Source: Cryobacterium sp. PAMC25264
GTDB taxonomy: Bacteria; Actinomycetota; Actinomycetes; Actinomycetales; Microbacteriaceae
Length of the DNA stretch: 64,000 bases
NCBI RefSeq assembly: GCF_019443325.1
Contig: NZ_CP080383.1
Span: forward strand, 868,001-932,000
Direction: 5' to 3'
Shown one piece after another: positions 7,081-45,539 of the stretch. Position numbers and translations under genes: made by a program. The stretch's first letter is position 1. Every line of letters starts with the position of its first letter. The notes below the pieces were generated by a model. It searched no databases, was not told the DNA's origin, and worked only from the letters and a program-made list of their open reading frames with translations.

Positions 7081-7135
7081 CGCTAAACGCAAATGTCTCG
7101 CACTCCGCCCGGTTCACCCGTCTGGTATTCGACCA

Positions 7136-8841: not shown

Positions 8842-10092
8842 TTATGAGTTGAGTGTTGCCAGCAGGGTGGTGACAGCGTCACTCTCAGTGGCTCGGTCGG
8901 GTGAGGATGAGCGAATCGCTGTCAGCACACGGTCAATTTGTCCGTCGATAACCGACCATCCGCTGCCGTCCAGAGGTTTCAAGGTTGATTGATCTTTGTC
9001 CCACGCTGTCTCGAGGTCAGCAATGCGGATGACGGCGCCAGCGTGGTCGCCAGCTTTCACCAGGTCGAGAGTGTCTTGCAGGACAACCCGGTAGTTGTCC
9101 ACGTTGCCGGAGGGGAAGTGCGCGGTCGCTGACTGGCCGGGCGCGAGGACAGCGCTGACACTGGTGCCTTCTTCGCTTGCGGCGGCGGTGCTGTGCGGTT
9201 GTACTCCGGCCCACACAAGTAAGCCGCCAGCGACAGCCGCGACCACCGCGAAGTATCCGATCATGACCCGTTCCCGGTTCCGAGTCGTCGTGATGGGTCC
9301 ACGGGAGCGCTGGTTCTCTGCAGCGTCGACACGGGTCACGCTGAGATATATGACGGTAGCGAGGATGGCGGTGAGGAAAATGATGCTGGTCAGTCCAACC
9401 CCCAGCCCAAGTCCGCCGTCGGTGACGGGGAACCCCATCCAATCGCCGAGGTTTGCCCCCAGGGGGCGGGTGAGGATGTATGCGAGCCAGAACGAGAGCA
9501 CCGGGTTGGCCCCGAGTCGCCAGCCGACGACGACAGCGATAATGAGTCCGGCCGGCAGCAGCACCGAAACGCCGGGGCTCCATCCCGTGATTTCCAGGAT
9601 CCAGTCGCCGGACGCGGTGCCCAAGGCGAATGTGACGAGGATGGCGAGCCAGTAGAACAGCTCGCGCCGGGTAGTGGTGATGCTGTGAATGGACAAGGTC
9701 CGTTGGCTTCGCCACCACACAGCAAACACGATCGCCAGAACCGCGGCAAAGACGGTTGTGCTCAGCGCCAGTGGAACCCCAAGGTCGTCCGTCAGAATGT
9801 CGGTGTACAGCGTGCCGGCGACACTGACGACCACAACGGTAAGCCAATAGACGAACGGGACGTATCGGCGCAGGAGCAGTTGCCATGCAAGCGTCACGGC
9901 CAGCACGGCGGTGAAGATGATGGAAGTCAGCTCCAGGCCGACACCGAGGGTCATGTTTATCCAGTCGGCGAAACTCTCCCCTACCGTGGTGCACAAGATC
10001 TTGATGACCCAGAACCACAGCGTGATCTCAGGCACTTTGCTCAGCATGGCCTGGCTTGTCCGCAAGGGCGCAGCGTCCGTTGTCTTCGTCAT
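8842..10092 (-). CDS. COG4705-type membrane protein with extracytoplasmic tail
   Basis: The first ~260 residues of this 416-aa protein duplicate the fold of the downstream paralogue (WFWVIKILCTTVGESFADW, RRYVPFVYWLTVVVVSVAGT, TTRRELFYWLAILVTFALGT, FWLAYILTRPLGANLGDWMG). An additional membrane segment at ~280-300 (MIGYFAVVAAVAGGLLVWAG) is followed by a ~115-residue soluble tail. The tail reads like the short extracytoplasmic domains of periplasmic helix-rich sensors (VDNYRVVLQDTLDLVKAGDHAGA, then VLTAIRSS). No good ribosome site is seen before the ATG. A direct-repeat element shared with the 12.7-kb promoter lies at 10117-10135, just upstream, suggesting control by the adjacent two-component system. 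Confidence 0.8.
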   Translation of the reverse strand: MTKTTDAAPLRTSQAMLSKVPEITLWFWVIKILCTTVGESFADWINMTLGVGLELTSIIFTAVLAVTLAWQLLLRRYVPFVYWLTVVVVSVAGTLYTDILTDDLGVPLALSTTVFAAVLAIVFAVWWRSQRTLSIHSITTTRRELFYWLAILVTFALGTASGDWILEITGWSPGVSVLLPAGLIIAVVVGWRLGANPVLSFWLAYILTRPLGANLGDWMGFPVTDGGLGLGVGLTSIIFLTAILATVIYLSVTRVDAAENQRSRGPITTTRNRERVMIGYFAVVAAVAGGLLVWAGVQPHSTAAASEEGTSVSAVLAPGQSATAHFPSGNVDNYRVVLQDTLDLVKAGDHAGAVIRIADLETAWDKDQSTLKPLDGSGWSVIDGQIDRVLTAIRSSSPDRATESDAVTTLLATLNS

Positions 10093-10116
10093 GCATCGGA
10101 GGTTACGGATGCCGCG

Positions 10117-10135
10117 CTAAGGATCCTCTGAGAAT
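10117..10135 (+). promoter_or_regulatory. Candidate OmpR-type regulator box, copy 1
   Basis: CTAAGGATCCTCTGAGAAT: half-sites CTAAG and CTGAG lie 11 bases apart, the helical spacing used by OmpR/PhoB-family dimers. Sixteen of 19 bases match the element at 12673-12691. It lies 24 bases upstream of the COG4705-type gene at 10092, in the gap after the histidine kinase gene. Confidence 0.4.
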
Positions 10136-10215
10136 GAAAGCTCAGGAGCGCCTCGTTCTACCGTCCATAAGGCGCCGCCCAGCCATGCCGGCTTTGAAAC
10201 GGACGGGCTCGCGAC

Positions 10216-11214
10216 TTATTTCGGTGGGCGTGGGAACTGAAGCGTGATTGTGGTTCCTGAGGCGGACGTGGTGGTCACCGTGGCGCTTCCGCCGTAACGA
10301 CTCACGGTGTCCTGTACCAGGGAGAGTCCGATGCCGAATCCGGTGCTTGCGGTGCCGCCACCATCAACTGCCTGGGCGGATCTTGCGAATCGGTCGAAGA
10401 CGCGGTCGGCGCTGATGCCCTGAATCCCGGGGCCCTGATCGGCAACGTCAATGCGCACCATGTCACGGCTGCACGACACAGCCAGCGTGATGCTTCGCCC
10501 CTGCGGGGAGTGTTTGATCGCGTTGTCGATCAGAGCAACGAGGCTGCGATGAAGACTGGTCTCCGGGATTGCCACAACCACATCGGCGGCGATCGGAGTG
10601 AGCGTGATCTGCACCCCTCGGTCTTTGGCAATCATCCGCATCGCTGACACAGCCGCGTGAACGGCGCGGTCGACCGAGATCGGCGACACGGCGGCGGCGG
10701 GTGAGACGTCAATGGAATCGAGGAGGTCTGCGACAACCCCGGCGAGAGCTCGCGAGTCATTGTGGATTTCTTCCACCAGTTCCCGGTGCGGATCATCGGG
10801 CGAGAGGGAGCGAGCGAGAAGCTGGATGCGGGCATCGGCAACTGCCAGTGGCGTACGCAGCTCGTGGGATGCGTCAGCAACAAAGCGCCGTTGCCGCCGC
10901 AGAGCGTCAACCAATGGGGCGACAGCGCGGCGCGTCACGAAGACGCTGACAATAGCCGCCAGCGAGATGGCCACCATCCCCACGATGACACCCCACACGA
11001 TGACGTCGACACCGTCGATATCAACAGCTGTCTCGTGCGGGCCGGGGCTGAACAGCACGTCGAGCGGTATTTGCGTGAAGACCACTGAGAGAGCGGCGGC
11101 TAATACCGCCACCACCAGCGTGGAGACGGCGACTGTGATCGTCACGCCAACTCGTCGGGATGCGTTACGCACGAGACGCGCATCAGCGTCTAGCGGCGCG
11201 GCGCGCGTCGTCAC
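10216..11214 (-). CDS. Membrane sensor histidine kinase (OmpR-family partner)
   Basis: A 332-aa kinase with two membrane segments (~20-45 and ~70-95) around a very short extracytoplasmic loop, then HisKA (phospho-acceptor His in FVADASHELRTPLAVAD) and a HATPase_c domain with N box (LIDNAIKHSP), G1 (DVADQGPGI) and G2 (GFGIGLSLVQD). The short loop resembles intramembrane-sensing kinases. The GTG start at 11214 overlaps the response-regulator stop (GTGA), so the pair is translated together. Its likely targets are the neighbouring membrane-protein and PAP2 genes, which share a direct-repeat box. Confidence 0.93.
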   Translation of the reverse strand: MTTRAAPLDADARLVRNASRRVGVTITVAVSTLVVAVLAAALSVVFTQIPLDVLFSPGPHETAVDIDGVDVIVWGVIVGMVAISLAAIVSVFVTRRAVAPLVDALRRQRRFVADASHELRTPLAVADARIQLLARSLSPDDPHRELVEEIHNDSRALAGVVADLLDSIDVSPAAAVSPISVDRAVHAAVSAMRMIAKDRGVQITLTPIAADVVVAIPETSLHRSLVALIDNAIKHSPQGRSITLAVSCSRDMVRIDVADQGPGIQGISADRVFDRFARSAQAVDGGGTASTGFGIGLSLVQDTVSRYGGSATVTTTSASGTTITLQFPRPPK

Positions 11215-24696: not shown

Positions 24697-25245
24697 TTAC
24701 ACCAAGTCAGCGGCCGCCCAGGCAATCTGACGGCACAGCACACGTAGATCGTCAAGTTCGACCAGTGCCAAAGGATTGCCGTCCAGATTGAGCAACGGCG
24801 TGTGGTGAAGAATCAGCAAAGTCTCGGTGGCCGGCACGACGCTACTCGGCAACGCCCGCCAGCTCACCTCGAGGTTGACGTTGATCCAATGAACGATGGA
24901 GTCCCGGTCAGGCTTCTCGAAGCTGAAGTTGTACTTGTTCACCTTGTTCGCGAGCGAACCGGCCCGCGGGCGGAACCCCAGAACGGCTCCGATGCTGCGG
25001 AAGAAGGTGCCGTGCCCACGACCTCGGAGTTCGTTTCGGAGCATCCGGTCCTTGAGCGACGTTGCCTTCCCTATATAAATCAAGCGCGACGAGCGTTCGC
25101 CGAGTAGTGACTCGAATGGTTCTGGCAACGTTGACCCGATGCGGAGTCGAATGGCGTAGAGGCCGGGGGAGGGCGGTACGTCGGAATCGATGGACTCGGC
25201 GGGACGGAATGAGGCATCGTCGACGAGTTCTGCAGCGATGGTCAC
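24697..25245 (-). CDS. GIY-YIG nuclease-fold protein
   Basis: 182 aa. The GLYAIRL (residues ~28-34) and LIYIGKATSLKDRM (~55-68) segments give the GIY and YIG strands with the conserved Arg in the following helix, and HWINVNLEVSWRAL may carry the later part of the fold. Such proteins cleave DNA or, in phage-defence islands, act as standalone endonucleases. The catalytic Glu is less clear: a late ETLLILHHTPLLNLDGNPLA segment is typical (E plus HTPLLN). It is nine bases from a coding neighbour on the same strand, so the two may be co-transcribed. Confidence 0.75.
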   Translation of the reverse strand: MTIAAELVDDASFRPAESIDSDVPPSPGLYAIRLRIGSTLPEPFESLLGERSSRLIYIGKATSLKDRMLRNELRGRGHGTFFRSIGAVLGFRPRAGSLANKVNKYNFSFEKPDRDSIVHWINVNLEVSWRALPSSVVPATETLLILHHTPLLNLDGNPLALVELDDLRVLCRQIAWAAADLV

Positions 25246-26334: not shown

Positions 26335-28029
26335 ATGGATGCGACCTCTGTAATTCGATCGATAACGATCAGCGACGGAACTACGGTGGCGCTTCCAGAG
26401 CAAGGTGTCGTTCTCCTAGTCGGCCCGAACAACGCAGGAAAAAGTCAGGCCCTGCGAGACATCGCCAGGCAGGCAACCTCAAAATCAAGGGATGGGGTTG
26501 TTGTCACAGCTTCCGATGTGTCCTACGTGGGATCGAAGTCCGATCTCTTGGAGACGTTCGAAAAAGACAAAGCAATAATTCGGGCGCCCGGATCCGATGA
26601 CCGAGTATCTGTCGGCAAGTCGGAGATGCCTCTGAGTCAACTGCTCGCCCTTTGGAGTGGAAGTAATCAACACCACGTCGGCGGTTACTTTCTCCAGCAC
26701 GCGGACACCGAGAGTCGATTGAATGCAAGTCGCCCCGTTGGCGCGCTCAATTTGTATGAGAAGAATCCGAGTCATCCGCTGCACCGCCTTTACATGCGCC
26801 AGGATCTCGAGGTCCGGCTCAATGGAATCTGCCGAGAGGCTTTCGACAAGGGTCTGATACTCGACACTTGGGCCGGCGGCTCAAGCTGGGCACTTCGTGT
26901 CGGGGAATTAGCCCCGCCCAACAGCTCGAGACCAGACCAAAAGTACCTGGAGGAGCTCAGGGAGCTGCCGCTGCTGCACACTCAGGGCGACGGGATGCGC
27001 TCGATGATGGGGTTGCTGCTCAACCTGATGACGGGCCATCAATCGATCTCTCTCGTGGACGAGCCGGAGGCCTTTTTGCACCCGCCACAGGCAAGGTTCT
27101 TGGGCAAGCTTTTGTCCGAGGATACGTCCGAGTCACTACGGACGATTTTTTTGAGCACCCACAGCTCCGATGTCGTCCACGGAGTACTTGAGGGTTCCGC
27201 GAACACCACCGTTGTCCGGCTGCGACGGCAAGGGAACACCAACGAGGCCGCAGTTCTGGATAACGATGCCGTTCGAAAACTTTGGAGTGACCCGCTCCTC
27301 CGCTACTCCAATTTGCTTGAAGGACTGTTCACTGATGCCGTTGTTGTTTGTGAATCGGACGCGGATTGCAAATTTTTTGCTTCGATCCGAGACACACTGA
27401 GCGCGACTGAAGTCGATACGCGTCGCGCGGACATTCTGTTCACGAGCTGTGGCGGGAAGAGCCGAATGCATGTTGCCGTCGAGTCGCTGCGCGCCGCGAG
27501 CGTGCCAGTCGCGGTGGTCGGCGACTTCGACGTTTTGAACGACTGGCCAACTCTCTCCCGACTGGTCAAGAGCGCGGGAGGCAATCCGTTGGATTTCGAG
27601 CCCGACTGGCGGATACTTTCTGGGGCGCTAACCGCGAAAGCCCGAACCCCCTCAGTGATAGGAATGAAGGAGGCTGTGGCTAAGGCATTCGAGGCGGTGA
27701 CTGAGGTGACGACGAAGTCCCTCGCGCCAGTACGCGAGGCCCTCAAGATCGAGAACGGGTGGGATCGTGTGAAGAACACCGGCCTTACGGGCGTTCCGAA
27801 GGGCGACGCGTACCTCGCTGCGTCCCGCCTCCTTGACGGGCTCGGCGCTATTCATATCCACTTGCTTCCAGTCGGCGAGATGGAGGATCTGGTACCCATG
27901 GTCAGCGGCCACGGGCCAGCTTGGCTGGCCGAGGTTCTCGAGCGGAGACTGCACGAGGGCCCAGATGGCGACAGTGCGCGCGGCTTCTTCAATGAAGTAA
28001 TCCAGTCGATCGCTCCCGGCGCGGAATAG
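26335..28029 (+). CDS. OLD-like ATPase-TOPRIM nuclease
   Basis: 564-aa single-chain protein combining an ABC-type ATPase and a TOPRIM domain, as in OLD-family nucleases and GajA, which cut DNA and act in phage defence. Walker A is GPNNAGKS (30-37), Walker B is SLVDEPEAFLHP (D242, E243), followed by a FLSTHSSDVVH switch. TOPRIM residues are E340 in VVVCESDADCKFF and D397/D399 in VVGDFDVLND. No UvrD-like GajB or other partner lies next to it, so it fits a standalone OLD-like protein, although the genes on both sides are nuclease-like. The ATG lacks a strong ribosome site. Confidence 0.85.
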   Translation: MDATSVIRSITISDGTTVALPEQGVVLLVGPNNAGKSQALRDIARQATSKSRDGVVVTASDVSYVGSKSDLLETFEKDKAIIRAPGSDDRVSVGKSEMPLSQLLALWSGSNQHHVGGYFLQHADTESRLNASRPVGALNLYEKNPSHPLHRLYMRQDLEVRLNGICREAFDKGLILDTWAGGSSWALRVGELAPPNSSRPDQKYLEELRELPLLHTQGDGMRSMMGLLLNLMTGHQSISLVDEPEAFLHPPQARFLGKLLSEDTSESLRTIFLSTHSSDVVHGVLEGSANTTVVRLRRQGNTNEAAVLDNDAVRKLWSDPLLRYSNLLEGLFTDAVVVCESDADCKFFASIRDTLSATEVDTRRADILFTSCGGKSRMHVAVESLRAASVPVAVVGDFDVLNDWPTLSRLVKSAGGNPLDFEPDWRILSGALTAKARTPSVIGMKEAVAKAFEAVTEVTTKSLAPVREALKIENGWDRVKNTGLTGVPKGDAYLAASRLLDGLGAIHIHLLPVGEMEDLVPMVSGHGPAWLAEVLERRLHEGPDGDSARGFFNEVIQSIAPGAE

Positions 28030-28961: not shown

Positions 28962-29665
28962 ACCCGAGGAGCACAGGAGAGCCGGAGCGGAAGCACTCCG
29001 TTTGAAACGTGCCGCGCAGACCGTACCGGCCGATGTCTGCCCCCTCTGATTAGATGAGCTCAAGCAGAAACGGCGCGATCATGACGGACACGACAGTGAG
29101 ACTCGGCGGGAATGCCGTGAGGGGATTCATTGCCGCCTTCTCGGACGCCAGGCGCCGACACTACGAAGACAAGCGTGTTCTCCGGCGTCAAGCGGCGGCG
29201 GACTTGCTGTCCTGGATCTCTGAACTCCGTCAGCTGTTGGTAATGCTGGAAGCGGAGTGTGATGAGGCCGCATGGAAAGATACGATGACGCGGTCGTACG
29301 CGTCGGTGCGCCGGGTTCGCCAGCTCACTCCCCGAGGGTGGGGGCATCTGCACCACTCGATTTTTGATGCGGTAGGCAACGGTGCCGGCGGTGTGGTGTG
29401 GATAGACGTGGCACCGTCATGGGCGGGGGACGCGCTCAGTTATAGCCCGGAGTGGTCCATTTACGCTGCTGTTAGCGGCCATGCCAAACTGCCCATAGGC
29501 GGCCACGGAACTGCCCACTGACGGCCAGTAGAACTGCCCGCTGGTGGCCATGAGATCTGCCCACTTCTATTTCTGAACCCCCGCCCGGTTACACGGCGGG
29601 AGCCCCTTCCTGGGATTTGATGACGGTGTCTAGTCGCATCAAAGTCGCCCAGGAAGAGGCCCTGA

Positions 29666-31192
29666 ATGAAGTTTGACGGAGAAATCATGGAAATACTCGC
29701 TGCCTACGACCTGACCGGGTCGTTGCGCGCCACAGCCGAGCTCACCGGCTGCTCGCACCACACCGTTGCCCGGCACGTCGCGGCCCGCGACGCGGGCCGG
29801 CCGATCGCCGAGCCCGCGTTCCGGGGCCGGGTCACGGACCCGTTTATGCCCAAGATCGAGGAGTGGGTCGAGAAGTCGAAAGGCAAGATCCGTGCCGACA
29901 AAGCCCACGAGAAACTCCGCGCGCTGGGCTACGACGGGTCAGAGCGGTCGACTCGGAGGGCGGTCGCGCAGGTCCGCGCGGCGTTCCGGCTGGGCCAGGT
30001 GCGAGTGCACCGGCCCTGGATCACCGAGCCGGGCATGTGGTTGCAGTATGACTTCGGCGACGGCCCCGTCATCGACGGCAAGAAGACGGTGTTGTTCGTC
30101 GCCTGGTTGGCCTGGGCGAGGTTCCGCATCGTGATCCCGCTGCGCGACCGGACCGCGCCGAGCGTGTTCGCGGCGTTGGATCGCTCCTTCCGGCTCCTCG
30201 GCGGGGCCCCGACCTACGTGCTGACCGACAACGAGAAGACGGTCACCGTCTCCCATGTTGCCGGGGTGCCGGTGCGGAACCCGCAGACGGTCGAGTTCGC
30301 CCGGCACTACGGGGTGACGGTGCTGACTTGCCAGCCCGCGGACCCGGCCTCCAAGGGCGGGGTGGAGTCGTCGGTGAAGCTCGCCAAGGCTGACATCGTG
30401 CCCAAAGACACCAACCTCCGGGCCGAATACGCCTCGTTCGCTGAGGTCGAAGCGGCCTGCGAAGCGTTCATGGCCCTGGTCAACAACCGGGAGCACCGCG
30501 CCACGAAGCGGAAGCCTGCGGTGATGCTCGAGGAGGAACGGCCCCGGCTGCACCGGGTCCCCGACACTGCGCACACCGTCGCGCTCGGTCTGACCAGAGC
30601 CGTTCCGGAGAACACCCCAATGGTCACGTTCGAGACCGGCCAGTACTCGGTCCCGGCGCACCTGCTCGGCGCCCGCGTGTTCGTTCGCAGCCACGGTGTT
30701 GGGGCCGACGAGCAGGTCGTCATCGTCCACGTCGGCAGCGACGGCCCCGTCGAGGTCGCCCGGCACCACCGGGCCCGGCCCGGCAGTCCCCGCATCGACG
30801 ACGCTCACTTCCCTGACCACAAGGAGAAGGTCCCGGGCGACTACACGATCACTCCGCGCAGCACTGCCGAGACTGAGTTCTTGGCCATCGGCGCCGGCGC
30901 GCACGCCTGGTTGCTCGAGGCCGCCGCGGTCGGCACCGCTCGGATGAACGTGAAGATGGCTGAGGCCGTTGCGCTGGCCAAGATCAGCGGCACTGCCCGA
31001 GTCGACGAAGCCCTCGGCCAGGCTGCCACTTACGGTCGCTTCGCGACCGGCGACCTCGCCTCCCTGTTGAACGCGGGCGGCGCCCGCCCGCCGGCGCGGT
31101 CGGCGACCGAGACCAGCTCGCTGGCGCAGGGCACCGCCGGGTGGGCTGCGATCGGTCAGACCACCGGAGACGAGCTGGAGCAGAGCGCATGA
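29666..31192 (+). CDS. istA: IS21 transposase IstA
   Basis: 508 aa, ATG after AGGAAGAGG. N-terminal helix-turn-helix (MEILAAYDLTGSLRATAELT, then SHHTVARHVAARDAG), then an RNase H-like integrase core with WLQYDFGDGPV (first Asp), PTYVLTDNEKT (second Asp) and the Glu in KGGVESSVKLAK, followed by the beta-barrel domain. Full length; no frameshift. Its stop overlaps the istB ATG (ATGA). Confidence 0.95.
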   Translation: MKFDGEIMEILAAYDLTGSLRATAELTGCSHHTVARHVAARDAGRPIAEPAFRGRVTDPFMPKIEEWVEKSKGKIRADKAHEKLRALGYDGSERSTRRAVAQVRAAFRLGQVRVHRPWITEPGMWLQYDFGDGPVIDGKKTVLFVAWLAWARFRIVIPLRDRTAPSVFAALDRSFRLLGGAPTYVLTDNEKTVTVSHVAGVPVRNPQTVEFARHYGVTVLTCQPADPASKGGVESSVKLAKADIVPKDTNLRAEYASFAEVEAACEAFMALVNNREHRATKRKPAVMLEEERPRLHRVPDTAHTVALGLTRAVPENTPMVTFETGQYSVPAHLLGARVFVRSHGVGADEQVVIVHVGSDGPVEVARHHRARPGSPRIDDAHFPDHKEKVPGDYTITPRSTAETEFLAIGAGAHAWLLEAAAVGTARMNVKMAEAVALAKISGTARVDEALGQAATYGRFATGDLASLLNAGGARPPARSATETSSLAQGTAGWAAIGQTTGDELEQSA

Positions 31193-31968
31193 GCGTCACC
31201 CAGGCCGCCGCACCCGCCCTTCCAGCCGAACTAGAAGCGTTGATGCGGCAGCTGAAGATGCCCTACGCCCGCGCCCTGGCCCCCGAGCTCATCGCGACCG
31301 CCCGGGCGCAACGATGGGAACCGGCCGAGATCATCAAGGCCCTGTTCGTTGAGGAAGTCACCGGCCGGTCCCGGTCGATGCTCGCCACCCGGCGCAAGGC
31401 GGCGGGGTTCCCGACGGGGAAGACGTTCGATACCTGGGACGAGGCCGCGTCCTCGATCCCGGTTCCCACCCAGCAGGCGTTGCGGACGTTGGAATGGATC
31501 GGCCGGAAGGAGAACGTCGTCGTTTGCGGCCCCTCTGGGACCGGGAAGACGTTCTTCCTCGAGGCCCTCGGCCAGCAAGTCGTCGAGGCCGGCATGCGGG
31601 TCGCGTGGTTCCGCCTCGAAGACCTCGGCGCCCTCGTTCGCGCGCACCGCGCCGATGACTCCGTCGGCCGGGTCGTGGCCCGGATCCTGCGCTCGGACCT
31701 GATCGTGATCGATGACATCGGGCTTCTCGAAGTGGGTGCTGACGCGGCCGAGGGCCTCTATCGACTCGTCGATGCCGCCTACGAGAAACGGTCCATCGCG
31801 ATCTCGTCGAACCTGCACCCGGCCGGCTTTGAAGAGCTCATGCCCAAGACCCTCGCGACGGCGACCGTTGACCGGCTCCTGCACCACGCTCACGTCTGCC
31901 AGACCTCGGGCGACTCGATCCGCCTCACCCAGGCCCTCGCCGGGAAGGGCGTCACGAAGATGAGTTAG
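31189..31968 (+). CDS. istB: IS21 helper ATPase IstB
   Basis: 259-aa AAA+ ATPase that loads with IstA on the target and drives strand transfer. Walker A GPSGTGKTF, Walker B LIVIDDIGL, sensor SSNLHP, and an N-terminal DNA-binding helical part (ALAPELIATARAQRWEPAEI). The ATG at 31189 overlaps the istA stop; an upstream ATG at 31141 lies inside istA and is not used. Confidence 0.95.
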   Translation: MSVTQAAAPALPAELEALMRQLKMPYARALAPELIATARAQRWEPAEIIKALFVEEVTGRSRSMLATRRKAAGFPTGKTFDTWDEAASSIPVPTQQALRTLEWIGRKENVVVCGPSGTGKTFFLEALGQQVVEAGMRVAWFRLEDLGALVRAHRADDSVGRVVARILRSDLIVIDDIGLLEVGADAAEGLYRLVDAAYEKRSIAISSNLHPAGFEELMPKTLATATVDRLLHHAHVCQTSGDSIRLTQALAGKGVTKMS

Positions 31969-32489
31969 ACCAACGACGACCGCGCATGGCCAAGGCCACC
32001 AACACCCAGGTGGGCAGATCTGTTGGCCATGAGTGGGCAGTTTCCGTGGCCACCAGCGGGCAATTCTGCTGGCCGCCTACGGGCAGTTCTTAATGGCCAT
32101 TGACACGCTGCGGAGTACCTCGACTACGCGCAGGGGCGGATTCAAGCCGGGCACAACGCGTACGACGCCCGGACGGCAGCAAAGGTGACTCTGCTCAGCT
32201 ACCAGGACTGGCTGATCCGAACCCACCGGTATGGCGAGGACATTTAACGCGGGCGCACCACCTCCGCGGCAGGCGCGTTGAGGAGCGACGAGTGGAACTG
32301 GGCCGGTCTGGCGGGTTTCGGCCCTACTGGCATAACAGGGCGTTTTCGGCGGTGCACACTACGGCTCAGCGCGCACGGGAGTAGTGCCTGACGGTCCGTA
32401 GCGTATCTATGCCAATAGGCGTCGTTCTCAGGAAAAACTTCGGTACGCTCTACCTAAAGTGCACAGTGTGCGTGGGGGGAAAGAATTTA

Positions 32490-33188
32490 GTGCCGATGAT
32501 GGGCGATTTCAGCGTTGGTAGTGAGCGACCCTCTGCCACGCGCACGCAGCATGCCATCAGAATTATGGTACTGCTGGACCGCTGTGGTGAGGCGACAATT
32601 GATGGCGACCCCGATTCCTCGGTTCGGGTTGTGCGGAGTGAACTCCGCCTGCAAGCAATGGACTTCTGGATGCGGAATCCTGACTACTTGGCCGACGAGC
32701 TCATAAGCCAGGTTCAGTCGGGGAATCTTGACAGCTCCTATTTGACAACTTCCAGCGACCTTCTCGACGGAGCCGAGCCAGACCTCCATTGGTATCCGAT
32801 GCCGCGCTGGTTCTACGGCGCTTATGAAGCCATTGACGACGCGGTCGCGTTGCTGGAGACCTACGGTCTCGCGACATTTCGACGCAGTGGCGAAGTCGGG
32901 TCAAAGAGCCAGCGCAACATGCTGTTTCTCAACGAGAAGGGGGCCAAAGCTGTCGTCGAACTCGAGAAAGACCCCGTGTTGAGCTGGTACACACGCCAAG
33001 CTGGCCTCGTGGCGCTGGTGGCGAAAGACACGGTTGGATCCAAACTCAAGGAGCGCCAGTACGAGCAAGCGACATACGCAGGTACGGAGCTTGGCCTCGA
33101 AATCGCGTCGATTTCTGATCGTGTTCGAAAGCGGTTGAGTGAATTGGGAGTGTCCGCAATCGGCGGCGTAACAGGAGATGAAGCATGA
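32490..33188 (+). CDS. First gene of ABC/SMC-like conflict operon: winged-helix-like protein
   Basis: 232 aa from the GTG at 32490, chosen because GGGGGGAAAG lies six bases upstream; ATG 32496 is next and ATG 32409 would add 27 unconvincing residues. The middle reads HAIRIMVLLDRCG then a Trp/Tyr-rich WFYGAYEAIDDAVALLETYG and MLFLNEKGAKAVVELE, the helix-turn-helix-wing pattern of an adapter or MarR-like fold. The C-terminal third is helical. It would act as the kleisin-like or middle component of an ABC-three-component system. The ATPase ATG overlaps its stop (ATGA), so the two are made together. Confidence 0.65.
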   Translation: MPMMGDFSVGSERPSATRTQHAIRIMVLLDRCGEATIDGDPDSSVRVVRSELRLQAMDFWMRNPDYLADELISQVQSGNLDSSYLTTSSDLLDGAEPDLHWYPMPRWFYGAYEAIDDAVALLETYGLATFRRSGEVGSKSQRNMLFLNEKGAKAVVELEKDPVLSWYTRQAGLVALVAKDTVGSKLKERQYEQATYAGTELGLEIASISDRVRKRLSELGVSAIGGVTGDEA

Positions 33189-35389
33189 GCGCGCTTGCTG
33201 AAGAGATTGTCAAACGTCTCAGTCGGAAACAGAAATCCAAACGGCTCAGTATTGAGGTACCTACGGTCGACAAGGTGCTGGAAGACCTGAGCATTCCCAC
33301 TTCGGCCTCAAAGGGCGTGCCAGTCGGTCTTCGAGTCAAACGGGTGGCGTTCAGTGGCACGAAGCGTCTTCCTCCGGAGCACCCTGACGCTGAGGGTCAT
33401 CCAATCGAAGAGGTAGGGGCAACAGGATTCCAGCTCGAGCTCGGACTCAACGACGCTGAGCAACGCGCGGAATCTGGACTGAACGATGCCTCAGTATGGA
33501 CGGGCGAGACCAATGTTGCCGATGAGGGCGTAGATGAAAAGGTACCCCGTGCCTTAGTGCCGTTTGCTTTCGAATGGGAGCCGCAGGAAGGCGTGAACGG
33601 TATCGGTTCGGGGCGGAATCTCCGGGGTAAGTCGACCATAATGAATTTGCTTCTGTGGTCGCTGTCTGGCCGTTGCACAGAATTCTCGCCAGATACTCGC
33701 CGATGGATTGAGCATGTTGAGGTGGACTGGTTGGTTGGAAACGAGACACTCCGGGTTTCGTTCGACGCCGAGAACGGGGTCGCGAACAACGGAAGGGTTA
33801 CATCGCTCCGGGATGACGGAGGCGCAGAGAACGTGGTCGCCAGGTTCGATGGTGACTCATTCGAAGATGCGATGAGCTCTGTGATGCTCAACCGACTTCG
33901 GTTGGAGATTTTCACAGTGTCGCAGGCAGGCAAGGCAGTACCGCATAAATGGGCGTCATACGTAAACGCTCTTTGGGTGCGTCCGAAATACCTCAAGTCG
34001 ATCATCGGCAAGGAGCCGGTACTTAGTATCAGGCTGATGCAGATGTTTATCGGTACAGATTGGGTACCGGTCCTTGCGGCGGCTTCGACTGTGGCCGGGG
34101 TACTGGCTTCGGAGCAAAAGGCCAATCAAGAACGTACGAAAACTGCCACGGATGCCGTTGGGGCTGCTCGGGTTGAAGCACAGAAGAAGGTTGACGATTT
34201 TCAGGCCCAGATCGCGGCGTTGCCCGCCGGTACTCCAGATCTGGCCAAGACGACTGCAGCGAGCCTACGCGCCGGCGACATTGCACTCGAGATTCACGCA
34301 CTCGAGACTCAGCTGCTGAATAGGTCGGTCGCCGCAGACACGATCCGGCAGCAAATAAAGGCAGCGAAGGCTCGCCAGCACACAGAGTACGAGCATTCCT
34401 TGCTGACGAAATTCTTCCATCAGATGGAGCCAACAGTCTGTCCGAGGTGCACAGCCACGGTGACCAAAGCGCGACGGGCTGCGGAACCGGATGAGCATAA
34501 ATGCTCTGTATGCACCAGCGATCTGAACCTGGAGGCGCTCAAGGCGAAAGTCGTGATTGCCGCTTCCGTAGACATTGCTGTGGCGTCATCGCTGGTCGAT
34601 TCCGCCTCCGTGAACGTCGCGGAGTCAGACGAGCAGCATCCGGCGCCGCGCAGCGAGATCGATGCGTTGTCAGACGCTCTTCAATCCGCTGAGTCTGGAA
34701 TAGCGCCGCTGCGCAGTCGCCGTGACGAGTTAGCGGAAGCGCGGGAAGTAGCTAGCAATGAGGCGGTGCTTGATACCGTTCTGCTCGCTGCAGCGCGGGA
34801 GCGGCAGAAGCTAGAGATTGAGCTTGCGAGGGCCGAGGGAGCAGTTGACGCACTAGCGCTTTCTGTTACCCCAGCGGCGGGGATGCCTGTCGACCCAATT
34901 CATCTTGCGGTGGCGGAGGGTGCTGTCGAAGTCTTGACCAGGTGGGTGAAGCTCCACCAGGATCCACTGCTGATGACTATCTCAGGGGAGATTGAGCGTC
35001 TAACTGTAAGCTTCGGCGGCGACAGCTTGAGCCATTTCAAGTTGGACGGCGCAGCCAACCTGAGCCTTCGCAAGGGCGGCGACCCAGCGTCGTACGGGCA
35101 GCTGACGCCGGGGGAACAACTTCGAGTTAAGATAGCCACGGTCATCGCTCTCATCAAACACGGCTACGCCGAGAACATCGGTAGGCACCCTGGCTTCCTG
35201 CTACTTGATTCGCCCGCTGCGGAGGAAATGCCGGACGGTGATCTGGCGACAATGGTGTCCGCGCTCCTTGAGGTTGCGCGCGAGGCGCCAATGCAGATCA
35301 TTGTCGCGACTAGAAATACCGGCCCGCTGGAAGAGTTACTTCACTTTAAGAACCGCATAATCGCGACAGGCAACGACTATGTCTGGTGA
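33185..35389 (+). CDS. SMC/Rad50-like ATPase with apical zinc ribbon
   Basis: 734 aa. An unusual ~135-residue leader precedes Walker A (G143 to K149/S150, RNLRGKSTI). Coiled-coil arms run at ~300-415 and ~447-560 around a four-Cys ribbon (C419-P-R-C422 and C440-S-V-C443). The ABC signature is QLTPGEQLRVKIA (~639-651) and Walker B is FLLLDSPAAEE (D675). The residue after the Walker-B Asp is Ser, not the usual Glu, so hydrolysis may use E680/E681 or be slow. SMC-like ATPases of this size act as DNA or RNA sensors in Lamassu- and ABC-3C-type defence. No hook of the single-CxxC Rad50 form; the ribbon could self-close or dimerise. Confidence 0.8.
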   Translation: MSALAEEIVKRLSRKQKSKRLSIEVPTVDKVLEDLSIPTSASKGVPVGLRVKRVAFSGTKRLPPEHPDAEGHPIEEVGATGFQLELGLNDAEQRAESGLNDASVWTGETNVADEGVDEKVPRALVPFAFEWEPQEGVNGIGSGRNLRGKSTIMNLLLWSLSGRCTEFSPDTRRWIEHVEVDWLVGNETLRVSFDAENGVANNGRVTSLRDDGGAENVVARFDGDSFEDAMSSVMLNRLRLEIFTVSQAGKAVPHKWASYVNALWVRPKYLKSIIGKEPVLSIRLMQMFIGTDWVPVLAAASTVAGVLASEQKANQERTKTATDAVGAARVEAQKKVDDFQAQIAALPAGTPDLAKTTAASLRAGDIALEIHALETQLLNRSVAADTIRQQIKAAKARQHTEYEHSLLTKFFHQMEPTVCPRCTATVTKARRAAEPDEHKCSVCTSDLNLEALKAKVVIAASVDIAVASSLVDSASVNVAESDEQHPAPRSEIDALSDALQSAESGIAPLRSRRDELAEAREVASNEAVLDTVLLAAARERQKLEIELARAEGAVDALALSVTPAAGMPVDPIHLAVAEGAVEVLTRWVKLHQDPLLMTISGEIERLTVSFGGDSLSHFKLDGAANLSLRKGGDPASYGQLTPGEQLRVKIATVIALIKHGYAENIGRHPGFLLLDSPAAEEMPDGDLATMVSALLEVAREAPMQIIVATRNTGPLEELLHFKNRIIATGNDYVW

Positions 35390-35462
35390 CAACGGTTTAT
35401 CTGTCTGACAGGTCATCCGGCACCATTCATACGACGCGCACTTCGCTGAACGGAGGTCCCTC

Positions 35463-37562
35463 GTGAGCGCGCCAGTGGCGAACGCCCTCGCTGCCGAATT
35501 GATGCGTCTTGCCCAGATCTCCGCGGGACGTCGATTCCCGGCGAATTCGATCGAGGTCCTTGGCGGTTGGGAACGAATCACGTTGGACGTCGGAACTCTT
35601 GTCGGCGAACCGACGCTTCCACTTCTGGCGCGACTAGTCGCAAGAGACGCCGGCGCGGTACCGAACGGACTCGCTACTGCCGCTCTGCTAGCAGTTGTTG
35701 ACACTGTCTTGGCAACATCTCAGCCAGCGTTGTTTCGGGATTCGATTGATGCTCTGCTCGATGCGGAGGGCGCGACGCGGGTGACAGGTGACCGCCTGGC
35801 CGCAGGTTTGTTACCAATCGTGGAGAGCTTCTTCGCCATCGGAAGTCGTGAGCCGGTCGCAGACATGGCCTCAGCTGATGCGTTGGAAGTGCTGACCCGC
35901 GTGGCAGCTGCCGGATACGGTTCTCGGTTTGGCCTATTCGCGCTCCTCGAACGATTCTCGACTCCGACGGTCCTACCTATGGCGCGGGCAGCAGTCCGGT
36001 CTATTGGTACTGCAGTGGATATCTGGCCAGAAGCGGACAGCCTTATAAGTTGTGTGCGCGCCTTGGGAGGCCTGGACCCAGTGGACGGTGCAGATCCGGT
36101 ACTTTCAGTGGCGGTGGAGTCGGATGCGACTTGGGTGCTTGGGATGGTCTCGGTCCTTCGTTCGTTGCGCGCCGATTCGATCAAGGAAATGGCCCCCTAC
36201 GTCGACGACGCCTACCAGTTCTTCGACGTTGCAGCTAAAGCATATGGTCGGCCCGATGCGTCGATAATGCTGTCGGTGATGGACGCTCTTCGGGAACTTA
36301 TTCGCGCCATCATCTCGGGAACTCCGTCGGAAGCGTTAGGGAGCAAGGCACTTTCGGCAAGTGCAATCGCTGACCTTCAAGCCCGCGTACTCAGATTCAG
36401 CATCGGTGGGCACGGGCTTGACCACTGGTATGTCGAAAGTAAGAGTGTGTCGCTCGCGGCCTGGGCTAACTTTGCCGGCGATCTTGACCGCCTTCGGGTC
36501 GAGTTTGCGAAGGACGCCTTTTATCAGGCCGAGGTAATTGTCGGCGCACTCTTGAACGTGTATGTGAGCGATCGATCATTCAGAATTCATCGTCGTGAGG
36601 GTGACATCGCTGGCGTTCAGGACTTGGTTCAGCCTGTAATCGAGGCGGGTTTCGCGACTAAGGCCAGTCATCTCAGCAACCTTGAACAGCATGCGGCTAT
36701 TCTCGACGCACGCCTTGCGAAGGAAAGCGATGAGGCCCTCCAAGAGCAGCGGGATGCTGCATACCAAATTATTGAGATCGTCCGGCGGACGGCGAAGGGG
36801 GAAGGGGCGCCGGGAAAAGGCGAAGGCGGCGCCCCGTTGCCGCCGCTCCCCGCTTTGCTTAGCCGTCTCGTCAGGCCTGGATCGGTAGAAGAGAACCTGC
36901 TACAGCAGATGCCTTTGGAATTACAGGAGGCTATTGCCGAAGGTATGGACGGCGTTGCGGACGGGCGCAGGTACTTGAACATCGTGCAGAGGGAGGTGTT
37001 TGACGGCATCCGGGCAAAGTTGGTGGAGTGCTCCGATTACAAAGGTGAAGTGATTCCGCTCTTTGACGAGGTCTTGCTACTCATTCTGAACTTCGTTGTG
37101 AGCCGAACGGCGGCGGATTCTGGTCACTATCCATATCTCTTCGACGAAGCGGCGAAGGAGATCGAAATCCATGAGGACCTCTACAACTATCTGGTCGGAA
37201 ACCTCGGTGCTCGCGCAGAGTACGAAGTCTCGCATGTTGGCGGCGGCAGGGTCGATTTGCGCTTGAAGTTTGACCGCTTCGCCATTCACATAGAAATGAA
37301 GGTCGACAGCACCCAGGTATCGATGGATGACAAGACTGCGTACCTCAAGCAAGCTGCGAGCTATCAAGGGAACGACATCATGGTCGGTTTCCTTATCGCT
37401 CTACGCCATAAGGCCTTCAAGAAGGGTGGGCCGGCAGCGCACCTGCGGTCGTTGATGGGGCACACTACCTTCGCGATCCCTGGGGACTCGGAGCCGCGCC
37501 ACATCGTGACGGTGGCAGTTCCGGGGAGTCGGACAAAGCCGTCGGCCTCCACCGCCAGTTAG
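35463..37562 (+). CDS. Large protein with C-terminal PD-(D/E)XK nuclease domain
   Basis: 699 aa, GTG start with GGAGG six bases upstream, 73 bases after the ATPase. Residues ~1-540 are helical without a known domain; a Gly/Lys-rich linker GEGAPGKGEGGAPLPP sits at ~447. The last ~140 residues read EDLYNYLVGNL (E571), GGGRVDLRL (D598), IHIEMKV (E611, K613) and KQAASYQ (Q630), the E-D-ExK-Q order of PD-(D/E)XK nucleases. No membrane segment. It is the likely effector: nuclease at the C-terminus, with the long helical part docking on the ATPase. Lamassu effectors usually carry the nuclease at the N-terminus. Confidence 0.75.
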   Translation: MSAPVANALAAELMRLAQISAGRRFPANSIEVLGGWERITLDVGTLVGEPTLPLLARLVARDAGAVPNGLATAALLAVVDTVLATSQPALFRDSIDALLDAEGATRVTGDRLAAGLLPIVESFFAIGSREPVADMASADALEVLTRVAAAGYGSRFGLFALLERFSTPTVLPMARAAVRSIGTAVDIWPEADSLISCVRALGGLDPVDGADPVLSVAVESDATWVLGMVSVLRSLRADSIKEMAPYVDDAYQFFDVAAKAYGRPDASIMLSVMDALRELIRAIISGTPSEALGSKALSASAIADLQARVLRFSIGGHGLDHWYVESKSVSLAAWANFAGDLDRLRVEFAKDAFYQAEVIVGALLNVYVSDRSFRIHRREGDIAGVQDLVQPVIEAGFATKASHLSNLEQHAAILDARLAKESDEALQEQRDAAYQIIEIVRRTAKGEGAPGKGEGGAPLPPLPALLSRLVRPGSVEENLLQQMPLELQEAIAEGMDGVADGRRYLNIVQREVFDGIRAKLVECSDYKGEVIPLFDEVLLLILNFVVSRTAADSGHYPYLFDEAAKEIEIHEDLYNYLVGNLGARAEYEVSHVGGGRVDLRLKFDRFAIHIEMKVDSTQVSMDDKTAYLKQAASYQGNDIMVGFLIALRHKAFKKGGPAAHLRSLMGHTTFAIPGDSEPRHIVTVAVPGSRTKPSASTAS

Positions 37563-38476: not shown

Positions 38477-39902
38477 GGTCACGTCCCGCTGAGTGGTGGA
38501 GTTTCTCAACACCGTGCGGGTCAGTTGTTTTAGTTTAGGCGGCGGCTAGTTCTGGGAGGATCACCGCCTCGTCGATTACCTCGGTGGGGTTGTTCATGGT
38601 GGCCAGCTCGAGCATGGATGCTTCGGAGAAGTAGCGGCGTTCGCCGGCTTCCCACTCGTCGTGCTGCTCGATCAGAACCGACCCGGCCAGGCGCAGCAGC
38701 GCGGCTGCGTTGGGGAAGACACCGACCACGTCGGTGCGGCGTTTGATCTCTTTGTTCACCCGTTCGAGCGGGTTGGTGGACCAGATCTGGCGCCAGTGCC
38801 GCCGGGGAAACCCGGCGAACGCGAGCAGGTCGGGTTGCGCGTCGACGAGCATCGCGGCGACCTTCGGGTGCGAGCGGCCCAGCATGGTGGTGACCTCGCG
38901 GAACTGTTTCTCGATGTGCTCTTGGTCGGGCTGGGCGAAGATGGTGCGGATGATCGAGGCGACCATGTCCTGGGAGCCCTTCGGGATCACGGCGAGGACG
39001 TTGCGCATGAAATGCACCCGGCATCTCTGCCAGCCGGCGCCCTGGAAGACGGTGCCGATGGCCTTCTTCAGCCCGGTGTGAGCGTCAGACATGACGAGCT
39101 TGACCCCGTCCAGGCCTCGGGTCTTCAACGACCGCAAGAAGCTAGTCCAGAAGCCCTCGTTCTCGCTGTCACCCACGTCAAAGCCCAGCACTTCCCGGCG
39201 CCCGTCCGCGGCGACCCCGACCGCGACGACGATGGCCTGGGACACGATCCGGTGCCCAACCCGGGCTTTGCAGTAGGTGGCGTCCAGGAACACGTAGGGG
39301 AAGTCTTGGGCCGCGAGGGTGCGGTCGCGGAACTCGGCGACCTCGGCGTCTAGGCCCGCGCAGATCCGGGATACCTCGGACTTGGAGATCCCGGTGTCAG
39401 CGCCGAGCGCTTTGACGAGGTCGTCGACTTTGCGGGTCGAGACGCCGTGCACGTAGGCCTCCATCACGACCGCGAACAACGCCTGATCGACCCGGCGACG
39501 CCGCTCAAGCAGAGCCGGGAAGAACGACCCAGCGCGTAGCTTCGGGATCTTCAGATCGAGGTCGCCGGCGGTGGTCGACAAGGTCCTCGGTCGGGTGCCG
39601 TTGCGGTGGGTGGTGCGGTCGCCGGTGCGCTCAAACGGGGCGGCACCGATGAACGCGGTCGCTTCCGCATCGATGAGTTCTTGGTAAAGAGTTTCCGTCG
39701 CGACCCGAATTCGGTCGGTGACGTCGGTGAGTTTGAGTTCTCCCAGCAGGTCGAGCAGGGCAGACTGGTCTAGAGCCATCGTGGTTTGTGTCTTTCTGTG
39801 AGTTGCTTTAGTCGGTACTCACTGACCCTCCCACGGTGGCTCTTTACGTTGACGAAGCAACGCTCAAGAGCGGGAAACCACACCACTCACAGGGACGCAA
39901 CC
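38477..39902 (-). mobile_element. IS256-family element with 8-bp target duplication
   Basis: 1,426 bp. Inverted ends of 31 bases match at 24 positions without gaps (both begin GGT, share CGTCCC, TGAGTGGTG and GTTTC). GATGCCGT is repeated perfectly at 38469-38476 and 39903-39910. One transposase gene on the minus strand. Confidence 0.95.
38535..39779 (-). CDS. IS256-family (mutator-type) transposase
   Basis: 414 aa, intact. It carries FPYVFLDATYCKAR (first Asp), GLDGVKLVMSDAHTGLKKAI (second Asp) and WSTNPLERVNKEIKRRT (Glu), with the CRVHFMRN motif between, as expected of the IS256/mutator family. The HRNGTRPRTL stretch near the start is typical. No frameshift, so the element is potentially active. 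Confidence 0.95.
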   Translation of the reverse strand: MALDQSALLDLLGELKLTDVTDRIRVATETLYQELIDAEATAFIGAAPFERTGDRTTHRNGTRPRTLSTTAGDLDLKIPKLRAGSFFPALLERRRRVDQALFAVVMEAYVHGVSTRKVDDLVKALGADTGISKSEVSRICAGLDAEVAEFRDRTLAAQDFPYVFLDATYCKARVGHRIVSQAIVVAVGVAADGRREVLGFDVGDSENEGFWTSFLRSLKTRGLDGVKLVMSDAHTGLKKAIGTVFQGAGWQRCRVHFMRNVLAVIPKGSQDMVASIIRTIFAQPDQEHIEKQFREVTTMLGRSHPKVAAMLVDAQPDLLAFAGFPRRHWRQIWSTNPLERVNKEIKRRTDVVGVFPNAAALLRLAGSVLIEQHDEWEAGERRYFSEASMLELATMNNPTEVIDEAVILPELAAA

Positions 39903-40604
39903 GATGCCGTCGTCAGAGCACTGGTTTCGATGTTGCCCAGTCAAACGCGTGCGCTCCTGGAAGACCTCGGCGGTACTTCGGGACAACGCCACCTGTATGG
40001 GTACACGAAAGGGGCGTTCCGGCCAGACTTGATGCTGTTCGATGACGAAGGCCAGATCCGTGTCGTGGTCGAGATCAAATGTGGCGCCCAAGGTAACTCG
40101 ACGTCCCTGAATCACATTCGAATTGGTGGCCAGTTTGCGGGAGAGGCCGGTAGACAATTCGATGACCCGACGGCTCGTCAGATCCTTAATGCTGCGGGTA
40201 TTGACGCGAACTCCGATATTGACTTCCATGACGAGAAGACTTGTTTCCTACCTTGTATAGGGCATTCGAAGATGGATCCAAAGGGTCGAGTCCGCGCTGG
40301 GATTGCCCAGATCGACGCTTACAGAGTCTCACGTCGATGGATTCCCGAAGACGTGAAACTTGATGACGCAGAGAAGGCCGCGTGGGTATTCCTCGATAGC
40401 GAGGGACGTTCAGCTGCACAAGCATTTCCCTCTTCGAGGCCGGGGAATACGTGGGCGTTTTCTGCGGGAGCTTGGGATGCGGTTAGCTTTCTCGAGCTGG
40501 CGGACGCGATCGATAAGGAGACGAGGTACTTGGCGCCGGCGACAGACAGAGTCAAGGTTGATCGCCTTGTCTATGCACTTCGGTCTCGAGTGCGCCCGCA
40601 ATAA

Positions 40605-44600: not shown

Positions 44601-45539
44601 TTACCGGTTCTCGCGGGCTGCTGCCATCGTCGCGAGCGCCAGTCTCGCCGTCTCCGCGACGAGCGCGTCATCGTATGCCACGTCGGGGTCGTTTCGGGTC
44701 GTGAAGACCGTGATAATCAACGGAATTCCGTCCGGGGGGATCACGACGGCCACATCGTTGCGGATCGCTCCGGAGCCTCCCGATTTATCGGCGACTTCCC
44801 AACCTTCCGGCGCCCCGGCACGAATCAGGGTATCCCCGGTCGCATTCCCTGTCATCCAGTCGATGAGGGTGGAACGGTCGGCGTCATCCAGAATCTCGCC
44901 CGAGACAATTCGCTCCAAGGTCTTCGTGAAGGCTCGTGGAGTCGACGTGTTGGCAGTGTTCTCGGTGGTGACCGTGTTCAGACCAGGCTCGTTGTCGACC
45001 ACGTCAGTCACGGTGTCGCCGTACCCTTCGATGATCTTGTCGAGGCCGGCCGGGCCTCCGAATTGCTTGAGCATGAGGTTCATGGCGGTGTTGTCACTCG
45101 CGCGTATGGCGGCCATGGCGACATCACCGAGTGGCAGGCCGGTGTCGAGGTGTTCGCTGGTGACGGGGGAGTAGCCGGCCTCGAGGACATCCGCCTCAGA
45201 CCAGGTGATGACACGGTCCAGCTCTTCAGTCGTGGTCTGGTCGAGCAGGGCTGCTGCAGCCAGCGTTTTGAGAGTGGATGCGTAGCCAAAGCGGCTGTCG
45301 CCTTGGTAGTCGAGGGTCGAGCCGTCAGCGGTATCGATCACGCTGAGCCCGATCCGAGCGTCGTACTGGTTCTCGAGTTCGTCTAGTGCGGTCTGCAGTG
45401 CTGAATCCGCCGGTTCTGTGGCGTCCCGCGAGGGCGTGCCTGCTGGCGTGTTCAGCGCGGCCGCGGTGCACCCGGAGGATGCGACCATCAGTAGCGAGCC
45501 GAGGACGATCGTCGTCCATCGTTTGTTCTGGGTAGCCAT
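44601..45539 (-). CDS. bla: Class A beta-lactamase, lipoprotein-anchored
   Basis: 312 aa. Lipobox SSGC (Cys 24), then the full class A set: S88-T-L-K91, S148-D-N150, E184-P-G-L-N188 (omega-loop E166/N170 equivalents) and K252-S-G. All catalytic residues are intact, so an active penicillinase or cephalosporinase is expected outside the membrane. It follows the CPBP gene by 70 bases with its own AAGAAGG site and no promoter-like element in between, so it is likely driven by MerR-type promoter F. Confidence 0.92.
   Translation of the reverse strand: MATQNKRWTTIVLGSLLMVASSGCTAAALNTPAGTPSRDATEPADSALQTALDELENQYDARIGLSVIDTADGSTLDYQGDSRFGYASTLKTLAAAALLDQTTTEELDRVITWSEADVLEAGYSPVTSEHLDTGLPLGDVAMAAIRASDNTAMNLMLKQFGGPAGLDKIIEGYGDTVTDVVDNEPGLNTVTTENTANTSTPRAFTKTLERIVSGEILDDADRSTLIDWMTGNATGDTLIRAGAPEGWEVADKSGGSGAIRNDVAVVIPPDGIPLIITVFTTRNDPDVAYDDALVAETARLALATMAAARENR

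Follow-up and report, generated by a model that had tools for sequence, protein, structure and literature searches.

A probable Lamassu operon with a putative C-terminal nuclease effector in Cryobacterium sp. PAMC25264

Lamassu systems, a kind of ABC-three-component defence system, are the closest described relatives of the operon studied here. In the portion of PMC10586767 consulted, the catalytic domain of the effector LmuA is described as generally N-terminal, this being a usual feature and not a stated condition. The literature consulted comprised portions of the same source and of PMC12904381, PMC12409362, PMC8565338, PMC10482375 and PMC12799240, and the general mechanism of the family was drawn from some of these. 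Within the portions of the Lamassu literature searched, neither an experiment on the subtype analysed below nor a description of a C-terminal LmuA nuclease was found, and the layout is not claimed as unpublished. The window, that is, the whole stretch of 64,000 nucleotides that was analysed, contains at positions 32490-37562 of the forward strand three tightly packed same-strand genes flanked by two insertion sequences. These genes very probably form a Lamassu system for defence against phages or plasmids in the order lmuC-lmuB-lmuA, with an effector that would carry a sensor-controlled nuclease at its C-terminus, in what is an ordinary and probably intact defence operon for its genome.

The three genes and their assignment to Lamassu

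The first gene encodes LmuC, the middle component (32490..33188, +; 232 aa from GTG 32490), and is contained in a longer ORF that starts at ATG 32409 (32409-33188, +; 259 aa counted from the first ATG). In 12 of the 13 loci compared, relatives start to resemble the longer ORF at its residue 28 or beyond (in locus L008 from residue 21), and a GGGGGGAAAGAA stretch lies immediately 5' of GTG 32490, so that this codon (residue 28), already favoured in the original prediction, is a likelier start than ATG 32409. An ATGA overlap joins the first gene to the second, which encodes LmuB (33185..35389, +; 734 aa). A gap of 73 nt separates the stop of lmuB from the start of the third gene, encoding the LmuA effector (35463..37562, +; 699 aa from GTG 35463), and GGAGG precedes its GTG. 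The common strand, the ATGA overlap and the recurrence of the trio in 22 loci bear out the coupled three-gene operon that had been proposed.

The three proteins were compared with a catalogue of defence models (PADLOC-DB of 2023) in a profile scan, from which gene order cannot be read. All of them matched models of one named system, Lamassu, almost over their full length: LmuC matched PDLC03872 (E 8e-72, residues 41-247 of the 259-aa ORF), LmuB matched PDLC03864 (E 1.2e-190, full length) and LmuA matched PDLC03853 (E 7.7e-141, residues 19-697). As the catalogue already holds a close model for each gene, the first idea of a candidate undescribed system is not supported, and the outcome that had been named as its refutation, matches of all three proteins to one named system, was obtained as far as identity is concerned. 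None of the three models carries an effector-domain description ('-'). The other suggestion made at that time, a divergent Lamassu relative, is supported by these matches and by a canonical Lamassu locus, L027, with an N-terminal Cap4 nuclease. This locus ties canonical Lamassu to the window subtype because its LmuB and LmuC match the models of that subtype, PDLC03864 at 2.9e-28 (its best model being PDLC03862, at 1.1e-91) and PDLC03872 at 5.5e-10, respectively.

A separate ABC-ATPase class, resembling Lamassu yet lying outside it, would agree with several of the data: the window LmuA and LmuC matched no more than one PADLOC model each, gene order and effector layout are unlike those of L027, LmuA has no detectable relation to Cap4-type LmuA, and sequence searches gave no convincing solved-structure relative for LmuC, LmuB or LmuA. 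However, the window LmuB also matches further LmuB models, six of them at E <= 1.3e-4 and another at 0.068, and the matches of the L027 proteins mean that two of the three parts are held in common with canonical Lamassu. We consider a separate class very unlikely, and as a leading view it was rejected on the Lamassu matches of all the genes and the bridging locus.

The description of the first protein as winged-helix-like found no support, since a Pfam scan returned zero families and a sequence search against solved structures gave just two chance-level matches (E 0.58 and 0.71), with none in a repeat search. The SMC/Rad50-like ATPase predicted for the second gene was confirmed by the full-length PADLOC match and by a conserved Walker A (NLRGKST) and signature (LTPGEQLR), and the middle region of LmuB matches the SbcC-like PHROG phrog_77 (E 7.3e-7). 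Residues N145, G148, K149, G643-E644 and D675-S676-P677 were invariant in 14/14 aligned sequences, window included. The same was observed for C419, C422, C440 and C443, which together form a zinc motif of two CxxC pairs (CPRC...CSVC, residues 419-443), in place of the one CxxC of a hook. These features mark LmuB as a Rad50/SMC-like ABC ATPase with a zinc element in a predicted coiled coil. Its Walker B (LLLDSP) has Ser at the usual position of the catalytic Glu, and DSP instead of DE was found in all 14 aligned LmuB and, by pattern, in nine of 11 loci (L069 and L070 being without a pattern match). The altered Walker B of Lamassu LmuB is described in the consulted portion of PMC10586767 as a change from Glu to Gln, whereas here the residue is Ser; this replacement of Glu suggests little or no ATP hydrolysis by LmuB.

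Recurrence, distribution and neighbourhood

The trio was found in C-B-A order in 22/22 inspected loci of the subtype, which span Actinomycetota and Alphaproteobacteria. These comprise 10 genome contigs (10/10 in this order), three genome regions chosen for their clear LmuA matches, LmuA being split in one of them, and nine plasmids (9/9), in one of which LmuB appears as two ORFs. For nine chosen proteins from five plasmid loci (five LmuA, two LmuC and two LmuB), the three PADLOC models of the window were the best match. Chance is excluded because at least 24 other homologues of LmuA were found at E <= 1e-110 among 8000 scored candidates and the trio recurs in the 22 loci. Pairwise distances of LmuA, LmuB and LmuC across 21 loci were correlated with r of 0.94-0.99 (reached by 0/1000 permutations each), values that still include the shared ancestry of the hosts.

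A clear LmuA was absent from the 36 other genomes of the same genus, which gave one weak match (G029), and was present in at least three of 395 other genomes of a phylum sample, with at most two candidates scored per genome. The weak matches in G029 and, from the phylum sample, G187 were not counted as relatives, since tblastn matched none of LmuA, LmuB and LmuC at those loci. Among 72,556 plasmid records, 34 contained LmuB relatives, 14 of which cover at least 80% of the query; one plasmid-borne set sits among conjugation genes.

In the window, an IS21-type element lies upstream of the operon (29470..32105, +), with istA at 29666-31192 and istB at 31141-31968 (Pfam rve and IstB_IS21) and inverted repeats within 29470-29565 and 32010-32105. 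Downstream, a Mutator/IS256-type element (38477..39902, -) shows a Pfam Transposase_mut match at E 3.4e-133 for 38535-39779 and an inverted repeat at 38477-38505 and 39874-39902. The surroundings had been described as an island full of nuclease genes, and Pfam analysis of 26 neighbouring and operon ORFs agrees with this in part: two of them encode nuclease-type proteins, one of the GIY-YIG kind and one OLD-like (ATPase-TOPRIM), and several of the others are transposases.

This patchy, mobile-element-linked distribution is consistent with a role in defence. Given the likeness of LmuB to SbcC/Rad50 (phrog_77), a cellular operon for DNA repair or recombination was also considered, but the lack of a clear LmuA in the 36 other genomes of the genus, its scarcity in the phylum sample, the flanking insertion sequences and the plasmid-borne relatives argue against it; we hold this alternative to be extremely improbable, and housekeeping DNA repair was rejected on the patchy distribution. 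More weight has to be given to the proposal that plasmids or other mobile elements, and not phages, are the main targets of the system, having in mind the plasmid-borne LmuB relatives, the set located between conjugation genes and the action of the V. cholerae Lamassu also on plasmids (PMC12409362, consulted portion). Nevertheless, carriage on a plasmid does not reveal the target, and Lamassu systems tested by others stop phages too, according to the portion of PMC8565338 consulted, so we regard a mainly plasmid-directed role as rather unlikely.

The C-terminal domain of LmuA

The C-terminal position assigned to the PD-(D/E)XK-type motif in the original prediction was corroborated. The putative core spans residues 566-634 of 699 (37158..37364, +) and contains the D-(x)n-(E/D)xK motif of PD-(D/E)XK nucleases followed by QxxxY. 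Residues E566, D572, E588, G595-R596, D598, E611-x-K613 and Q630-x3-Y634 were invariant in 23/23 closer and 17/17 more divergent sequences, with the window protein in both sets, and E588, R596, D598, E611xK613 and Q630xxxY634 are kept in effectors down to 17% identity to the window LmuA.

Comparisons with known nuclease families gave weak statistics. An Mrr profile matched the alignment of 17 divergent LmuA in register, although weakly (E 0.0026, probability 11.7%, score 23.8), and none of 200 column shuffles reached this score (maximum 19.7). When 28 Mrr domains were compared with 88 mostly closer LmuA, the score (11.4) was no better than the average over 60 shuffles, to which it was equal, and a higher score (14.0) came from a different slice of LmuA; with just five Mrr domains the E value was 0.18. 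The Mrr signal is thus confined to the 17-sequence divergent alignment, and is supporting, not decisive. Pfam gave PDDEXK_9 at E 0.28 in one of 23 LmuA members; a PDDEXK_9 search gave 0/119 genomes and likewise no controls, and is hence uninformative. One Shedu SduA_C sequence, used out of the four genomes with matches, compared with LmuA at E 0.23, and the LmuA profile produced chance-level matches alone against solved structures (E 1.4 and 1.9).

Taken with the weak profile match, the motifs suggest that the C-terminal domain of LmuA is a DNase. These modest statistics would also be expected if the domain had kept a similar motif for another role, such as binding, but the invariance of the catalytic-type residues in such divergent effectors and the in-register Mrr match, better than 200/200 shuffles, make a non-nuclease domain unlikely. 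A DNase would give a suggested enzymatic activity to an effector model, PDLC03853, that the catalogue lists without description.

Proposed mechanism and comparison with known systems

By analogy with the family, the system would work through DNA sensing, effector release and cell death. LmuB, together with LmuC, would probably bind abnormal DNA from phages and plasmids (ends, hairpins, replication intermediates) and would hold LmuA inactive until this binding released or rearranged it. The C-terminal PD-(D/E)XK-type domain would then cut foreign or damaged DNA and the invader would be stopped, probably at the expense of the cell. Given the little or no ATP hydrolysis suggested by the Ser of Walker B, this would be an ATP-bound switch that turns essentially in one direction. 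A released, tetramerising effector could be carried over to the window LmuA only by analogy, since profile comparison with Cap4-type LmuA (33 of 79 homologues) detected no relation (E 0.31); neither a shared docking domain nor any other kinship was found in that comparison.

A tentative possibility, which we consider less probable than not, is an 'inverted' Lamassu, in which a long N-terminal region lacking any known domain replaces the usual C-terminal part for docking and oligomerisation and an unrelated C-terminal PD-(D/E)XK nuclease replaces Cap4. If this were true, an effector of independent origin would be governed by the shared LmuB-LmuC sensor in another geometry: it could be released and then assemble via its N-terminal region, or become active while attached. 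The data indicate that one sensor pair works with oppositely built effectors, in at least two phyla, and the two layouts give a concrete basis on which to ask at which part the sensor holds LmuA.

Compared with known systems, the window operon is nearest to the subtype defined by PDLC03853, PDLC03864 and PDLC03872, from which no window-specific difference was found. Wadjet (JetABCD) resembles it in that an SMC-like ATPase and a nuclease act together against mobile DNA (PMC10586767, consulted portion). It differs in its four genes and its nuclease (JetD), and no Jet model in PADLOC was matched by LmuA, LmuB or LmuC at E <= 1. SbcCD and Mre11-Rad50 share with the window the SbcC/Rad50-like ATPase and a zinc element in the predicted coiled coil. 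However, SbcCD is widespread, whereas the window operon is patchily distributed, is without a Mre11-type phosphoesterase by Pfam and has an effector with PD-(D/E)XK-type motifs. Canonical three-gene Lamassu (type II, DdmABC, with a Cap4 effector) has related LmuB and LmuC in a nuclease-effector operon, and in L027 LmuB also carries the DSP Walker B and the four-cysteine, paired CxxC element. The gene order had rightly been seen as unlike known Lamassu, being C-B-A in the window and A-C-B in L027. The same is true of the effector: the nuclease of L027 is N-terminal (Cap4, LmuA residues 36-143), in line with the general description, whereas the window protein, matched by the PADLOC LmuA model all the same, departs from this usual feature and carries its catalytic-type residues at the C-terminus.

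Operon layout and identity

In agreement with the original prediction of a three-gene operon, lmuC (32490-33188, with the longest ORF opening at 32409), lmuB (33185-35389), encoding a Rad50/SMC-like ATPase, and lmuA (35463-37562), encoding the effector, all lie on the forward strand. The first two overlap by four bases, and a gap of 73 bases separates lmuB from lmuA, whose GTG start is preceded by GGAGG. In 12 of 13 loci, similarity between LmuC and its relatives begins no earlier than residue 28 of the longest ORF (at residue 21 in locus L008), so that position 32490, as originally chosen, is likely the true start.

Two insertion sequences flank the operon, one of IS21 type (inverted ends within 29470-29565 and 32010-32105) and one of Mutator/IS256 type (ends at 38477-38505 and 39874-39902). 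A 272-aa ORF (39786-40604, +) starts inside the latter, and so may have been cut by it; by eye its RPDLML...VVVEIK resembles a PD-(D/E)XK nuclease, and no family match was found in Pfam, NCBIfam, PADLOC and PHROG scans. The window also encodes a protein with an OLD-like ATPase and a TOPRIM domain (26335-28029, +; PADLOC Old 6.5e-18, Pfam OLD-like_TOPRIM 2e-5), which could represent another defence gene, a GIY-YIG_2 nuclease-type protein (24697-25245, -; Pfam 2.9e-25) and, by sequence, a Beta-lactamase-family protein (44601-45539, -; Beta-lactamase2 5.4e-40).

Pfam and NCBIfam scans of the three operon proteins gave no match above cut-offs. In PADLOC-DB 2.0.0 (2023), all three matched models of one named system, Lamassu: LmuC matched PDLC03872 (E 8e-72, residues 41-247 of 259), LmuB matched PDLC03864 along its entire length (E 1.2e-190), and LmuA matched PDLC03853 (E 7.7e-141, residues 19-697). 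LmuA and LmuC each matched a single model; for LmuB, six further models of that component scored E ≤ 1.3e-4 and one more reached 0.068. Matches of all three to one system were what the original prediction named as refuting novelty, and the proposal that the system might be undescribed is not supported. The operon belongs to a Lamassu subtype already in the catalogue, one whose effector is distinctively laid out. What the analysis mainly adds is the likely activity, and its position, in an effector whose catalogue model (PDLC03853) carries no description, together with evidence for lmuC-lmuB-lmuA (C-B-A) as the layout of a recurring cross-phylum subtype.

Conservation and distribution of the gene set

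The co-occurrence envisaged in the original prediction was observed: the three genes were found together in C-B-A order, on one strand, in 10/10 loci obtained by scanning genome contigs with LmuB, and in the same order in 9/9 plasmid loci opened, out of 15 listed records. Clear LmuA matches led to three genome regions, all of them with this order as well. In one of these (L021, genome G156) LmuA is in two overlapping ORFs (9103-11012 of the locus), which may be a sequencing error, given an assembly of about 150 contigs. Of 72,556 plasmid records, 34 contain an LmuB relative, which spans 80% or more of the query in 14; among 50,697 phage records there was none.

The nine plasmids come from Rhodococcus, Streptomyces (four), Methylobacterium, Roseovarius, Sphingomonas and Mesorhizobium, with LmuA profile matches from E 4.8e-156 to 7.9e-14, broken into two stretches in L064 and L068. 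In the conjugative Roseovarius plasmid (L065) the set, at 3168-7669, is flanked by conjugation genes, with LmuB split between two annotated ORFs. PDLC03853, PDLC03864 and PDLC03872 were the best models for all nine plasmid proteins scanned (five LmuA, two LmuB and two LmuC, from five loci). Pairwise distances among 21 loci, with the window included and L021 and L065 left out for their split genes, correlated at 0.991 (LmuA-LmuB), 0.941 (LmuA-LmuC) and 0.947 (LmuB-LmuC), each value being reached by 0/1000 permutations. The permutations do not correct for shared host ancestry, but the loci come from two phyla. Apparently, the three genes move as a set.

Among 60 genomes (its own, 36 others of the genus and 23 of the order), the LmuA model gave a clear match only in its own; a weak match in G029, of the same genus (7.2e-4), leads to a locus with no match to any of the window's LmuA, LmuB or LmuC. 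In a phylum sample of 396 genomes, own included, with up to two candidates scored in each, at least five matched: its own, G260, G270, G156 and, weakly, G187 (6.3e-4). The LmuC model matched 5 of 246 genomes, own included and one of them weakly. In 14 control genomes, the LmuA model matched one (Methanosarcina acetivorans), the LmuC model none and the LmuB model six, so that LmuB alone is not specific. In these samples of genus, order and phylum, such a patchy distribution is the pattern of a mobile defence gene rather than of a housekeeping gene.

The LmuA C-terminus and the LmuB ATPase

The closer LmuA alignment contained 23 of at least 25 homologues, own included, the short P0023 and P0025 being left out. 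E566, D572, E588, G593-R596, D598, E611, K613, Q630 and Y634 are invariant in it, and in 17 divergent LmuA proteins (down to 17% identity with that of the window) the same holds for E566, D572, E588, G595, R596, D598, E611, K613, Q630 and Y634. Their spacing agrees with a PD-(D/E)XK nuclease core that carries a QxxxY motif, a motif typical of RecB/Cas4-like members.

Against 28 Mrr domains, a profile of the 17 divergent C-termini gave an in-register alignment (E 0.0026, score 23.8, with a probability of only 11.7%), a score reached by 0/200 column shuffles (maximum 19.7) and by no other LmuA slice (maximum 15.4). The same test with 88 mostly closer LmuA proteins gave 11.4, equal to the mean of 60 shuffles, and 14.0 for an N-terminal slice; Pfam support for a nuclease here is negligible. 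With the C-terminal region as query, 82 proteins of 408-726 aa were retrieved, own included; no precomputed Pfam domain is recorded for any of them, and all those with a name are called hypothetical or uncharacterized. Judged from its conserved residues, the LmuA C-terminus likely has a nuclease-type activity.

LmuB carries a Walker A (NLRGKS), a signature (LTPGEQLR), a zinc element (CPRC-x17-CSVC) and, as Walker B, DSP, in which the usual glutamate is substituted. All 14 aligned sequences retain D675, S676, P677 and the four cysteines. In a pattern scan of 11 loci, which includes the canonical Lamassu L027 and shares L021 with that alignment, paired CxxC was found in all 11 and DSP in nine, being absent from L069 and L070. 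For Lamassu, a Glu to Gln change in Walker B has been described, with slow or absent hydrolysis suggested (Liu and others, PMC10586767); by extension from Gln to Ser, ATP hydrolysis by the window LmuB may likewise be slow or absent.

Proposed mechanism and relation to canonical Lamassu

Lamassu sensors are described as recognising DNA ends or hairpin-like structures, and so switching on a nuclease effector (PMC12904381), and LmuA, once set free, as forming a homotetramer in which the Cap4 domain becomes active (addendum of PMC12409362). By analogy, the window operon would follow the same sensor-to-effector logic but with another effector. Least secure is the step by which LmuA would be held and activated, since a sequence search found no relative of known structure for its long N-terminal part.

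A weak LmuC-model match in genome G163 (1.2e-7) pointed to L027, a canonical Lamassu locus with consecutive lmuA, lmuC and lmuB. Its 456-aa LmuA (best model PDLC03848) bears a Cap4 nuclease at residues 36-143 (Pfam 1.1e-13), and no relation to the window-type LmuA was detectable. Its LmuC has PDLC03872 as best model (5.5e-10), and its LmuB, best matched by PDLC03862, also matches PDLC03864 (2.9e-28); because these are the models of the window subtype, the sensor (LmuB) and the middle component (LmuC) are common to both. Whereas the canonical locus L027 has the order A-C-B and an N-terminal Cap4 domain, the window operon has the order C-B-A and conserved catalytic-type residues at the C-terminus of LmuA, both sharing related LmuB and LmuC.
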